Assembly: GCF_000373785.1 (NCBI RefSeq)
Contig: NZ_KB892379.1
Coordinates: forward strand, 25,916 to 89,915
Origin: Erysipelothrix tonsillarum DSM 14972
GTDB taxonomy: Bacteria; Bacillota_I; Bacilli_A; Erysipelotrichales; Erysipelotrichaceae
Direction of reading: 5' to 3'
DNA length: 64,000 nt
This document shows, piece by piece, positions 57,007 to 60,990 of this stretch. The notes under the pieces are model-generated. The model ran no database searches. It was not told the origin of the DNA and saw nothing but the letters and a program-made list of their open reading frames with translations. Position numbers and translations under genes: made by a program. Each line of letters starts with the position of its first letter. Position 1 is the first letter of the stretch.

Positions 57007-57021
57007 TGAGGGGTGATCTCA

Positions 57022-57396
57022 ATGTTAGACTATAATTTAAAAAAGATTCGTTTAAATCGAAAATTAACACAACGAGAGCTAGCGGAACGTGTAAATTATT
57101 CTCAACAAGCTGTGGCGAAGTGGGAAGTGGGGGTTTCGAATCCAGATATTTCAAACCTTGTAAAGATATGTGAAGAATTAAATATATCGATTGAATGTCT
57201 TCTGTGTCGTAAACCAGATCATATGCAAGACTTTGATGAATGGAGTTTACATCTAGCGTTGTATCATGTCTTGAACCTATGTGGTACACATCATGAACTT
57301 GGCTTTAATGTTCGTGAACTTGATGAGATCAGCAAGGTAAGTTTAATTAATGAATTAGTCGGATTTTTACGAAAAAAAGCCCTTTTAATGAAGTGA
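57022..57396 (+). CDS. XRE-family transcription regulator
   Basis: A 124-residue protein. Residues 4-58 are a Cro/CI helix-turn-helix (NLKKIRLNRKLTQRELAERVNYSQQAVAKWEVGVSNPDISNLVKICEELNIS). The C-terminal 65 residues contain two Cys and several His (ECLLCRKPDH, LNLCGTHHELGF) and may sense metal or redox state; that is only a suggestion. The start at 57022 follows AGGGGTG; a GTG 9 nt earlier overlaps it. It is convergent with the secreted Cys/His-rich gene. Confidence 0.87.
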   Translation: MLDYNLKKIRLNRKLTQRELAERVNYSQQAVAKWEVGVSNPDISNLVKICEELNISIECLLCRKPDHMQDFDEWSLHLALYHVLNLCGTHHELGFNVRELDEISKVSLINELVGFLRKKALLMK

Positions 57397-57397
57397 A

Positions 57398-57423
57398 AAA
57401 CCTATCTTTGATAGGTTTTTTTT
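57398..57423. terminator. Terminator shared by the XRE gene and the convergent small gene
   Basis: AAAACCTATC-ttt-GATAGGTTTT followed by T-run on plus; an A-run precedes it for the minus strand. Confidence 0.88.
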
Positions 57424-57727
57424 AGTGATGCTTGCGATTTTGATGTTTTTGTCCGCGATGGTCACTGTTTTGATGCTTGGGTTGGTTATTGCATGTTCCT
57501 TCGTGTCTACGAGAACATTCTTCGGGATTTTGCACGCAGTCGAATCGGTCAGTGGTTTCACGATCAAGGTGAGGGCAATCCTTGGGGCAGTCCTGATTGT
57601 GCTCACGTCTGTGGATTGGGGTTTGTGGTATGTCCGCTGCATTAACGGAAGTTGGATTGAGTAAGATTCCGATTAAACCTCCAAAGAGTGTTAAACAAAT
57701 TGTCGTAATCATAATTTTTTTGCTCAT
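57422..57727 (-). CDS. Small secreted Cys/His-rich protein
   Basis: A 101-residue protein. Residues 1-30 are a signal peptide (Lys-Lys, a long hydrophobic core, cleavage after SVNA). The mature part has five Cys (47, 51, 64, 71, 79) in a DCPKDCPHLD / DCVQNPEECSRRHEGTC pattern and nine His, ending in a basic tail with two KHQN repeats. The composition suggests metal binding or a disulfide-stabilised peptide. AAAGGAG precedes the ATG, so the gene is credible despite its size. It is divergent from a two-component system and two TCTATCGC repeats lie just upstream. I do not recognise a family. Confidence 0.78.
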   Translation of the reverse strand: MSKKIMITTICLTLFGGLIGILLNPTSVNAADIPQTPIHRREHNQDCPKDCPHLDRETTDRFDCVQNPEECSRRHEGTCNNQPKHQNSDHRGQKHQNRKHH

Positions 57728-57739
57728 AATATTCTCCTT

Positions 57740-57767
57740 TCTATCGCTAGTCTATCGCGAAAGTATG
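57740..57767 (-). promoter_or_regulatory. Direct repeats and possible -10 of the Cys/His-rich gene
   Basis: TCTATCGC occurs at 57740-57747 and 57751-57758, an 11-bp period typical for OmpR-family regulator sites. A -10-like CATACT reads at 57767-57762 on the minus strand, so the repeats would overlap the transcription start. Confidence 0.5.
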
Positions 57768-57808
57768 GCGAAATCGTGTCGTTTTGTCACAAGTGAAAAA
57801 AAGTCCCG

Positions 57809-57817
57809 TGATATAAT
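57809..57817 (+). promoter_or_regulatory. Extended -10 promoter of the two-component operon
   Basis: TGA-TATAAT lies 17 bp before the response regulator start. Confidence 0.6.
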
Positions 57818-57834
57818 TGAGACAGGTGATCTAT

Positions 57835-58524
57835 ATGGATAAAATATTAATCGCGGATGATAACCCTACGATCTTGAGTATAATCGAAAAATATTGTGAA
57901 GATGCTGGCTTTAACGTTGAAGTAGCCTACAATGGCGAAGAGGCGTTAGACCTATTTGCAAAGCATTCTTTTTGTCTTGTGATTTTAGATGTCATGATGC
58001 CTTTTATCGATGGATTTGAAGTATGCAAGAATATAAGGAAAACCTCTAATATTCCAATTATTATGGTAACGGCTCGCGGTGAGGATTATGAGCGCATTAT
58101 GGGTTTAGATATGGGAGCCGATGATTATATTGTTAAGCCATTTATTCCCGGAGAACTCATGGCACGTGTGAGAGCCATCTTGAGACGGGTGGGAAACGAC
58201 GCATCGATTCATCAAAAAACAATTGAGAACATTACTGTAGACTTAGATAAATTTGAAGCAATGATTGATTCAAAGCCTGTTTCTTTAACGAAAAAAGAAA
58301 TTGAAATTTTGTGGACAATGATGCAAAATCCTGAGCGCGTCTATACGCGTGATCAACTGTTGGATCTTGTTTGGGGCGATGACTACCTTGGGGATTATCG
58401 TACGGTGGATACGCACATTAAACGTTTGCGTGCGAAGATTAATCATCATAATCATCCAACATGGGATATTAGCACTGTGTGGGGTATCGGATATAAATTT
58501 GAGGTTTACAATCATGAAACATAA
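57835..58524 (+). CDS. OmpR-family response regulator
   Basis: A 229-residue regulator: receiver domain with D8-D9, phospho-acceptor Asp52 (VILDVMMP) and Lys in VKPFIPGEL, then a winged-helix domain (RVYTRDQLLDLVWGDDYLGDYRTVDTHIKRLRAKI). ATG 57835 follows AGGTGAT. It overlaps the kinase gene by 11 nt. It is divergent from the secreted Cys/His-rich gene, its most likely target. Confidence 0.93.
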   Translation: MDKILIADDNPTILSIIEKYCEDAGFNVEVAYNGEEALDLFAKHSFCLVILDVMMPFIDGFEVCKNIRKTSNIPIIMVTARGEDYERIMGLDMGADDYIVKPFIPGELMARVRAILRRVGNDASIHQKTIENITVDLDKFEAMIDSKPVSLTKKEIEILWTMMQNPERVYTRDQLLDLVWGDDYLGDYRTVDTHIKRLRAKINHHNHPTWDISTVWGIGYKFEVYNHET

Positions 58525-60037
58525 ACTTACCCAAAAATTAATTGCCTATTTCACAATTCCGCTGGTCATTTTTGTGCTAGTCTTAGGACTCATATTTACA
58601 AATATGTATCGCAAAAATATAATCAAACGAACCCAGGTAGAGTTAGTTGAACGCGCGGATACAATTGCAAGCTCGCTTTCAACCTATTTAGAGCGTCGCC
58701 AAGTAGAAGATGTTACACGTAACAATCGGCACCAAAATCACGGCATGAATCGGGAACGGGATTTTAATCAATATTTAGAAGTTGTTGATAAAATTGCGAT
58801 GAGTGAGGTATGGATTATTGATGCGACGATGCAAACTGTGAGTGTGGGGCATGGCAGCAAGGCGGTTGATTTTGAATCGATTCCACTTGATGGGGAAACT
58901 ATGATCCGAGAAGCGTTGGCAGGAAATACAATTCAAAGTGAAGGCTTCAGCCCCTTACTGAATAACCAATCCATTTCAGTTGGGGTTCCCGTGCGAAATT
59001 CAAATGAAGAAGTTATTGCGGCCGTTCTTTTGCACAGTGCTGTTTCAGGGATCCAGGAAACAGTACAAGAAGGGTATCTTGTTCTGGCGATAGGTATGGG
59101 GTTTGCCTTAATGACTGCGGTAGTTGTTGCGTTCTTTTTATCAAAGAAATTTGTTAAACCAATCTTGATTATGGACGAAGTTTCTCAAAAAATGATTGAA
59201 GGCGATTATCAGGTTCAAACACATATTAATCAAAACGATGAGATTGGGGGATTATCGAAAACATTAGATACCTTATCATTGCGGCTTCAAGAGGTCGAGA
59301 CTGAGCGAATGAATTTTGATCAATTGCGTCAAGATTTTTTTGCGGACATTTCGCATGAATTGAGAACGCCGATAACAGTTCTTAGAGGTTCGTTAGAGGC
59401 ATTTAACGATGGTATCATCCATGATAAAAATGAACAACAATTGTATTTCAACCAAATGCTTTTAGAAGTGGCACAGCTTCAAAAACTTGTGGACGATTTA
59501 TTGGATTTATCTCGATTGAATCGTACTGAATTTAAGCTCACCTATGAAGTGTTTGCGTTAAATGATGTTATGACAGATAGTGTACGGAGCATGAATACAA
59601 TTGCGAAAGCAAATGATGTAACTTTAGAAGTACACATAAAGCCCGAAATTTACATGTTTGAAGGGGATTATGCACGCATCCGTCAAATGTTGATGATTGT
59701 CATGGATAATGCAATTAAATTTTCACCACCAAATGATAAGGTCTCAATTTCATTAAATAAAACAAACGACACGGTCGAGATGGTGATTCGAGATCGTGGC
59801 GCAGGAATTGCGGATGAGACCTACGAGCACATTTTTAATCGCTTCTATACTTCGTCCAAAGATAATGAATCTGGAATCGGTATTGGACTTGCGATTGCGA
59901 AACGGATTGCGGATTTACATAATATTAATATTAAGGTAGAGAATGATCATGGGGCAGTTTTTAGATTCTTTTTCCAAACCGCTAAGCCGGGGTTAAAATC
60001 TGAATTTGAATCGCTTTGTTCATTTTCAAAAAGGTGA
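58514..60037 (+). CDS. Sensor histidine kinase with extracytoplasmic sensor
   Basis: A 507-residue kinase: helix 1 (10-30), an extracytoplasmic domain of about 155 residues, helix 2 (about 188-208), HAMP (to about 262), phospho-acceptor His281 in ISHELRTP, N-box DNAIKFS, G-boxes DRGAGI and GIGIGLAI. The sensor resembles a single Cache-type fold (VWIIDATMQTVSVGHGS, SVGVPVRNSNEEVIAAVLLH) and carries a His/Asn/Arg-rich loop RNNRHQNHGMNRERD (69-83). GAGG lies about 9 nt before ATG 58514. It belongs to the PhoR/ResE-like class of kinases. Confidence 0.93.
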   Translation: MKHKLTQKLIAYFTIPLVIFVLVLGLIFTNMYRKNIIKRTQVELVERADTIASSLSTYLERRQVEDVTRNNRHQNHGMNRERDFNQYLEVVDKIAMSEVWIIDATMQTVSVGHGSKAVDFESIPLDGETMIREALAGNTIQSEGFSPLLNNQSISVGVPVRNSNEEVIAAVLLHSAVSGIQETVQEGYLVLAIGMGFALMTAVVVAFFLSKKFVKPILIMDEVSQKMIEGDYQVQTHINQNDEIGGLSKTLDTLSLRLQEVETERMNFDQLRQDFFADISHELRTPITVLRGSLEAFNDGIIHDKNEQQLYFNQMLLEVAQLQKLVDDLLDLSRLNRTEFKLTYEVFALNDVMTDSVRSMNTIAKANDVTLEVHIKPEIYMFEGDYARIRQMLMIVMDNAIKFSPPNDKVSISLNKTNDTVEMVIRDRGAGIADETYEHIFNRFYTSSKDNESGIGIGLAIAKRIADLHNINIKVENDHGAVFRFFFQTAKPGLKSEFESLCSFSKR

Positions 60038-60241
60038 TGCAGGAATGCCTTTTAGCTCAGAGTGCATTCCTTGATACGAGGTACTACGTTTAATGATAGT
60101 GGCACGAAATGTAGCAAGCGTTATATACGAAAACACTTAAACCAAAATCGTGATTGATTCTTTTAAGGGATTAAGAATTGCAATCTATTAGGAGCCGGTG
60201 TACAAAAAATCAAAGTGAAAATACGATAAATGATTTAATTC
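60038..60241 (+). other. Gene-free stretch before the rplJ promoter
   Basis: No coding frame is credible. AGGAATGC (60041-60048) and GCATTCCT (60064-60071) form an 8-bp stem right after the kinase stop codon, without a T-run; it may be a weak 3' end structure. Nothing else stands out. Confidence 0.5.
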
Positions 60242-60269
60242 TTGACTTTTTTATTAAAGTTGGTAGAAT
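60242..60269 (+). promoter_or_regulatory. Promoter of the rplJL operon
   Basis: TTGACT (60242-60247), 16 bp, TAGAAT (60264-60269) with TGG before the -10. Confidence 0.8.
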
Positions 60270-60289
60270 ATCTATGTTATCAATTAACC

Positions 60290-60358
60290 AAAGACAGTAA
60301 CGGGGAAACCTTAATTACGTTACCGAGGTGAAAGTATAAAACTTTTGAACCTGTCTTT
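60290..60358 (+). ncRNA. Ribosomal protein L10 leader
   Basis: AAAGACAG (60290-60297) pairs with CTGTCTTT (60351-60358), enclosing GTAACG/CGTTAC and an AAAGT/ACTTT hairpin with the conserved ACCGAGGTGAAAG strand between. This is the L10 leader, where L10(L12)4 binds and represses its own operon, placed directly upstream of rplJ. Confidence 0.88.
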
Positions 60359-60417
60359 TGTATGGGTTTATTTTTTTGGTTTAATTTGATTTCCGAGATC
60401 GAATGGAGGTGAATCAT

Positions 60418-60990
60418 TTGCGTACAGAAATTTTAGAAAATAAAAAAGCTGTTGTTGCAGAGATTCAAGAAAAAGTAATGAACGCCGGATCAACAGTTGT
60501 TGTTGAATACCGTGGACTAACCGTAGATCAAATGACTGAACTACGTCGTCAACTTCGTGCAGAAAACGTTGAATTTAAAGTTTATAAAAACTCAATGTTC
60601 CAACGCGCTGTCGAAGGCACAGACTTTGAAGGTTTAAAATCCGAATTAACAGGACCTAACGGTGTTGCGTTTGGAGAAGATGCTGTTGCACCTGCTCGAG
60701 TATTAGCTAACTTCGCTAAGAAGAACAAAAAGTTAATCCTTAAAGCTGGTATCGTTGACGGTAACTTAGTAGACCAAGAAGAAATCAAAGAACTCTCAGC
60801 ATTACCAAACCACGATGGCATGGTTGCTATGTTGGCTGGTATGTTCCAATCACCAATCCGAAGCTTTGCTTACGCTGTATCACAAGTTGCTGAACAACGT
60901 GCAGAAGGCGGAGAAGTTGTTGAAGAAGCAGCAGTTGCTGAAGAAGCACCTGTTGTAGAAGAAGTAAAAGAAGAAGCTACAGAAGCTTAA
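60418..60990 (+). CDS. rplJ: 50S ribosomal protein L10
   Basis: A 190-residue L10, base of the ribosomal stalk. RTEILENKKAVVAEIQEKVMNAGSTVVVEYRGLTVDQMTELRRQLR is the conserved N-terminus; SPIRSFAYAVSQVAEQ binds L12, and an Ala/Glu/Val-rich acidic tail follows. The start is taken as TTG 60418 because GGAGGTG is 5 nt upstream; the in-frame ATG at 60403 contains that site. Autoregulated through the leader. Confidence 0.96.
   Translation: MRTEILENKKAVVAEIQEKVMNAGSTVVVEYRGLTVDQMTELRRQLRAENVEFKVYKNSMFQRAVEGTDFEGLKSELTGPNGVAFGEDAVAPARVLANFAKKNKKLILKAGIVDGNLVDQEEIKELSALPNHDGMVAMLAGMFQSPIRSFAYAVSQVAEQRAEGGEVVEEAAVAEEAPVVEEVKEEATEA

Follow-up and report, generated by a model that had tools for sequence, protein, structure and literature searches.

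A regulator-kinase pair with a divergently encoded, exported His/Cys-rich miniprotein in Erysipelothrix: a candidate CopRS-like metal-response circuit

The described system closest to the one reported here is CopRS of Corynebacterium glutamicum with its divergent cg3286-copO cluster, in which the copR/cg3286 intergenic region is the sole region bound by CopR; activation extends to both sides of it, including the divergent gene for a secreted protein (PMC3140484). In C. crenatum, cueP is under CopR control (PMC11124244), and in Synechocystis the secreted protein CopM binds Cu(I) and confers tolerance (PMC4335983). A search of the literature on copper and two-component systems in Erysipelothrix returned no paper that, judging by titles and abstracts, appeared to describe the system analyzed here. 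The window, that is, the whole 64,000-nucleotide stretch of DNA under analysis, comes from a 1.93-Mb genome whose genus also includes Erysipelothrix anatis, E. urinaevulpis and E. aquatica. We consider it probable, if well short of certain, that the locus described below is a self-contained CopRS-like circuit through which a Gram-positive cell responds to a metal on the outer side of its membrane, most likely Cu(I), perhaps also Ag(I). Its components and logic are already of known kind.

The miniprotein gene occupies positions 57422-57727 on the minus strand, is preceded by an AAAGGAG ribosome site and encodes 101 amino acids with a predicted type I signal peptide, cut near VNA/AD. The mature part of about 71 residues contains nine His, five Cys and no Met. 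On the other side of the intergenic region, the overlapping reading frames of an OmpR-type regulator and its kinase run in the opposite direction; an earlier note, made from the letters alone, had described just such an exported protein divergent from a regulator and kinase, and the ORF bears this description out. A terminator hairpin at 57395-57424 (11-bp stem, -10.8 kcal/mol, z -5.9, U-runs on both sides) is common to the miniprotein gene and a convergent HTH gene, so that the former is monocistronic in the window genome. The convergent gene itself (57013-57396) is of the Xre repressor type, with RstR as its best model, below cut-off.

Searching with single miniprotein sequences against 60 related genomes and the GTDB contigs found no match except the query itself, and for the window and sister miniproteins Pfam and NCBIfam gave chance matches only. 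More specifically, Pfam at E up to 1 revealed neither CueP (PF21172) nor an LTXXQ-type CpxP/Spy domain in the miniprotein; DUF305, the CopM domain, had no Pfam match in it, and DUF2680 (PF10925) had none in the window or sister proteins. The homology search proposed in the earlier note hence came up empty for sequence relatives, while synteny supplied counterparts in five congeners. Kinase orthologs, 42-45% identical, were present in five of 12 congeners, and all five of these encode an exported protein of 80-111 amino acids at the same place, divergent from the regulator. Together with the window genome, the divergent pairing, on which the earlier reading had been staked, is kept in six of six carriers. 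The chance that a signal-peptide-like, equally His/Met/Cys-rich ORF lies divergent 60-200 nt from a randomly chosen window position is 0.0027; against this, such an ORF was present in all six kinase-bearing Erysipelothrix genomes.

The congener miniproteins share only 20-27% identity with that of the window, and their mature parts, of low complexity, evolve fast and contain 9-13% His in all Erysipelothrix carriers. Between the counterparts of two close congeners, 17 synonymous and 19 nonsynonymous codon differences gave a dN/dS of 0.083/0.385 = 0.22, indicating that the reading frame is coding. The corresponding values for the kinase sensor were 0.006/0.253, leaving the miniprotein about ten times less constrained.

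Position and promoter geometry, rather than homology, mark these family-less miniproteins as consistent partners of one kinase lineage. Comparing the intergenic regions of about 30 related loci yielded the consensus TATGRCRAAANNNTGWC, an 11-bp direct repeat that reads GWCAY-NN-TTTYGYCAYA on the miniprotein strand and that we take to be Pho-box-like. In the window, this predicted regulator box lies at 57764-57780 (TATGGCGAAATCGTGTC on the plus strand, GACACGATTTCGCCATA on the minus strand), followed on the minus strand by the predicted -10 element of the miniprotein promoter, TAGACT, at 57749-57754. Among 20 representative loci, drawn from many genera, 18 had a TANNNT element exactly 9 nt past the box, whereas any other offset between 0 and 29 was seen in at most 4 of the 20; on the regulator side, the same 20 loci gave no peak of similar sharpness. 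The fixed spacing places the box where the -35 element of the miniprotein promoter would be, and the predicted arrangement is that of a class-II activator site.

Scanning whole genomes with the composite of box and -10 element returned one exact match per genome in all six carriers, always at the miniprotein promoter, and none in the seven congeners lacking the kinase (0 in 7/7). The pattern was derived from the carrier sites, so that their match is by construction, which does not apply to its uniqueness elsewhere. Matches to the box with one mismatch were no more frequent than those of a reversed-pattern control, and we therefore claim no additional regulon targets. At the level of sequence comparison, control of the miniprotein gene by the divergent regulator is well supported. 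A different operator had been proposed earlier, at 57735-57770, on the strength of two TCTATCGC direct repeats near the predicted transcription start. Both copies are there (57740-57747 and 57751-57758, 11 bp apart, overlapping the -10 element and the predicted start); they occur in the window genome only, and their absence from the sister promoters ruled them out as the operator. The proposed interval was thus mostly wrong, the conserved box lying at 57764-57780.

The regulator (57835-58524, plus strand, 229 amino acids; Pfam Response_reg 2.7e-31, Trans_reg_C 7.8e-27) is of the OmpR/PhoB type, and the kinase (58514-60037, plus strand, 507 amino acids; HisKA 3.2e-18, HATPase_c 2.9e-23, HAMP weak) is a membrane sensor histidine kinase. 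An OmpR-type regulator with a membrane kinase carrying an extracytoplasmic sensor is what characterizes the CopRS/CusRS-type class; the genetic link to envelope copper-handling proteins that also marks this class was found in relatives and not in the window genome. On the heavy-metal subfamily models, the regulator scored 173.8 bits on TIGR01387 (cut-off 279.2) and the kinase 114.7 bits on TIGR01386 (cut-off 292.55), both below threshold, for which reason we say that the pair works like these subfamilies and do not call it a member of them. Downstream, the intergenic stretch at 60230-60400, ahead of an L10-like ORF (60403-60990), resembles a ribosomal-protein leader.

Between its two transmembrane helices, the kinase sensor was modelled as a PDC/sCache fold (pLDDT 83) with WalK (4ywz, Z 10.9), CitA (1p0z, Z 10.4) and DcuS (3by8, Z 10.1) as the nearest folds, agreeing with the label 'Cache-like' that the kinase had been given before; a profile match to DcuS (E 0.002) was also obtained. 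CusS was not among the top fold matches, and a full-length model (pLDDT 70) was set aside as too weak. As modelled, the fold leaves the identity of the ligand unspecified. The RNNRHQNHG stretch pointed out earlier is present in a His/Met loop at about residues 65-80, with the sequence RNNRHQNHGMNRERD, which in the window genome holds two His and one Met and forms a low-confidence segment between two helices of the sensor model.

What ties the circuit to copper is its surroundings in relatives. CueP (PF21172, E 1e-42 to 1e-46) lies near the miniprotein gene in four of the six carrier species, directly after it in two sister species and at a distance of about 1.5 kb in the other two. It was not found in the window genome (97% complete) or in the carrier G010, and congeners without the kinase had none. 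Among 272 genomes of the family, 21 held the kinase, 17 held CueP and 11 held both (p = 3e-10, kinship ignored); counted by genus, the kinase and CueP each occurred in 6 of 59 genera and shared 4 (p = 5e-4, kinship again ignored). About 4 kb downstream of the kinase, E. urinaevulpis encodes CopY and a Cu-translocating ATPase, each scoring above the cut-off of its model. Orthologous kinase loops and partner proteins hold Met, in motifs such as HM, HMM and HGM. In the two sister species with adjacent genes, the same promoter appears to drive CueP as well.

Similar miniproteins recur beside CueP in a second kinase lineage. Separate regulator-kinase-CueP operons of another Bacilli family (L087, L091, L107), whose regulators are only about 30% identical to the window type, face a divergent, His-rich exported miniprotein of 59-88 amino acids, and there too an 11-bp repeat is followed by a -10 element after 9 nt, a spacing read by eye. 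Other CueP-linked two-component loci in Bacilli have exported proteins of duplicated modules adjoining the regulator (L081:4541-5152, L084:7401-8012, L085:4657-5196), those of L081 and L084 carrying HGMMG/MMGGNMMGY motifs. In another Erysipelotrichaceae genus, a His/Cys-ended membrane protein of 85 amino acids with a C-terminal KPSCH is encoded about 1.8 kb upstream of the regulator-kinase-CueP operon (L062:1745-2002, L064:10492-10749).

Pairing, box, box placement and CueP link all emerge from comparison between genomes, and from these associations we infer that copper would be the signal with the best support. In the copper circuit that we favor, the metal would meet the His/Met-rich loop of the PDC-type sensor domain, upon which the kinase would phosphorylate the regulator, as histidine kinases do with their partner regulators. 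The regulator would then bind the direct repeat at 57764-57780 in place of a -35 element and activate the divergent miniprotein gene in the way that PhoB acts at Pho boxes. Once exported, the miniprotein may use its His and Cys residues to bind metal, either on the cell surface or in the surrounding medium; free metal would then fall, and with it perhaps the kinase signal, a feedback on the circuit. The metal circuit with a secreted effector suggested by the earlier note is supported, and is narrowed towards copper by the adjacency and co-occurrence of CueP, by CopY and the Cu-ATPase, and by the His/Met loop.

Wider searches with the sensor domain reached Trichococcus, Enterococcus, Clostridium cadaveris and other Erysipelotrichaceae, and many of these loci, though not all, have a divergent exported small protein. 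The Enterococcus partners are Arg/His/Met-rich, and those of Trichococcus contain Cys and no His. Aligning the Erysipelothrix and Enterococcus miniproteins by hhalign gave an alignment confined to the signal peptides; we therefore do not claim that the mature parts are homologous or share ancestry. The loop that follows the first helix of the kinase varies as well: His and Met make up 7.9% each in Erysipelothrix, the Enterococcus loop is strikingly Met-rich (MHGMMG...MKMGMG), and the Trichococcus loop is not enriched in either residue. His content of loop and miniprotein correlated with rho 0.75 over 21 loci and rho 0.50 (p = 0.12) over 11 representatives, and as the latter is not significant, we regard the apparent coupling as merely suggestive.

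Some further relatives deserve mention. Leptotrichia kinases of this family (L224:4395-5963, L225:4368-5963) have a sensor loop of far greater length, and the gene directly upstream encodes about 525 amino acids; no regulator was found within the fetched flanks. In a Chloroflexi MAG, an exported, ferritin-like-looking protein with a CDTCQCNC tail precedes a two-component relative on the same strand (L227:383-1063). On an Enterococcus raffinosus megaplasmid, a distant kinase relative comes before an exported protein of low complexity with a GHCY end (L274:4204-8941), with a heavy-metal P-type ATPase convergent nearby. The idea that the kinase travels on copper plasmids was dropped, this distant relative on E. 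raffinosus megaplasmids being the only case found.

The wider family also feeds the main rival, which we judge unlikely but the most serious of the alternatives: a Cpx-type envelope-stress circuit, in which the small protein would be a feedback inhibitor or chaperone docking on the kinase sensor, with its His and Cys incidental or modulating. The precedent is close, as cpxP lies divergent from cpxRA, is strongly induced and, when overexpressed, inhibits CpxA (PMC6737893). Here, the kinase has BaeS and WalK models among its library matches and a WalK-like sensor fold. Moreover, instead of being His-rich, the partners in three related two-component loci of other genera show weak similarity to DUF2680 (PF10925), just below cut-off at E about 5e-5; together with the His-free Trichococcus partners, they indicate that metal ligands are not the common denominator, and the Trichococcus partners and loop indicate that metal chemistry is not universal in the kinase family. 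Set against this, Pfam gave no CpxP/Spy similarity, the linkage to CueP speaks for copper, and the low-complexity, fast-evolving mature parts in Erysipelothrix are more in keeping with metal binding than with a defined docking surface.

An identical circuit tuned to Zn, Ni or another borderline ion, its His-rich tail serving as a Zn/Ni buffer, is very unlikely in our view. The window proteins taken by themselves would suit it, with a Met-free mature miniprotein and a single Met beside two His in the loop, and His-rich sequences readily bind Zn and Ni. However, Met is found in the orthologous loops and partners, and the genes linked to the system encode CueP, CopY and a Cu-ATPase. That the miniprotein is an autoinducer, an extracellular signal for the kinase as in the 'signal-sensor pair' of the earlier note, is extremely improbable: in its favor, the protein is divergent, co-conserved, exported and rapidly diverging along with the sensor loop; against it, neither a processing motif nor a peptide exporter was noticed next to the miniprotein, the sensor is of the PDC/sCache type and not a polytopic pheromone receptor, and in sister species CueP appears to be co-transcribed with the miniprotein.

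Should copper prove to be the signal, a single extracytoplasmic sensor would govern both CueP and a secreted metal binder in Firmicutes. The locus also offers a search rule for such proteins elsewhere, namely a box, 9 nt, a -10 element and a signal-peptide ORF; neither the miniprotein family nor this promoter rule was found in the profile libraries or literature searched. A bolder extension, which we think quite unlikely, is that these loci represent a widespread, unrecognized class of two-component systems in Gram-positive bacteria, in which a fast-evolving exported miniprotein is the main and perhaps sole dedicated product, giving metal to, or withholding it from, a co-varying His/Met loop of the kinase. 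Such systems would have an extracellular metal co-sensor built in, one recognizable by promoter geometry and not by sequence.

Among known proteins and systems, DUF2680 is approached only by the near-cut-off partners of the three related loci, and the Erysipelothrix proteins have no match to it. CueP (PF21172, NCBIfam NF038094) shares an apparent operon with the miniprotein in two sister species, and the miniprotein is not itself a CueP. As with E. coli CpxP-CpxRA, a small exported protein is encoded divergent from a regulator and kinase; unlike there, no CpxP/Spy domain was found and a copper protein joins the apparent operon of sister species. Synechocystis CopMRS likewise encodes an exported, copper-binding protein together with, and under control of, its own two-component system, but CopM has two DUF305 domains and shares one operon with that system, whereas the miniprotein is His/Cys-rich, lacks DUF305, is divergent and would bind metal only by our reading. 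Compared to C. glutamicum CopRS, the half-site differs (TGAAGATTTnnTGAAGATTT), the window system has no multicopper oxidase, and the predicted box occupies the -35 position where the CopR site lies far upstream (-266 to -285). What the two have in common is a single direct-repeat regulator site per genome (a predicted one in the window system), placed between the divergent genes and serving the local circuit.
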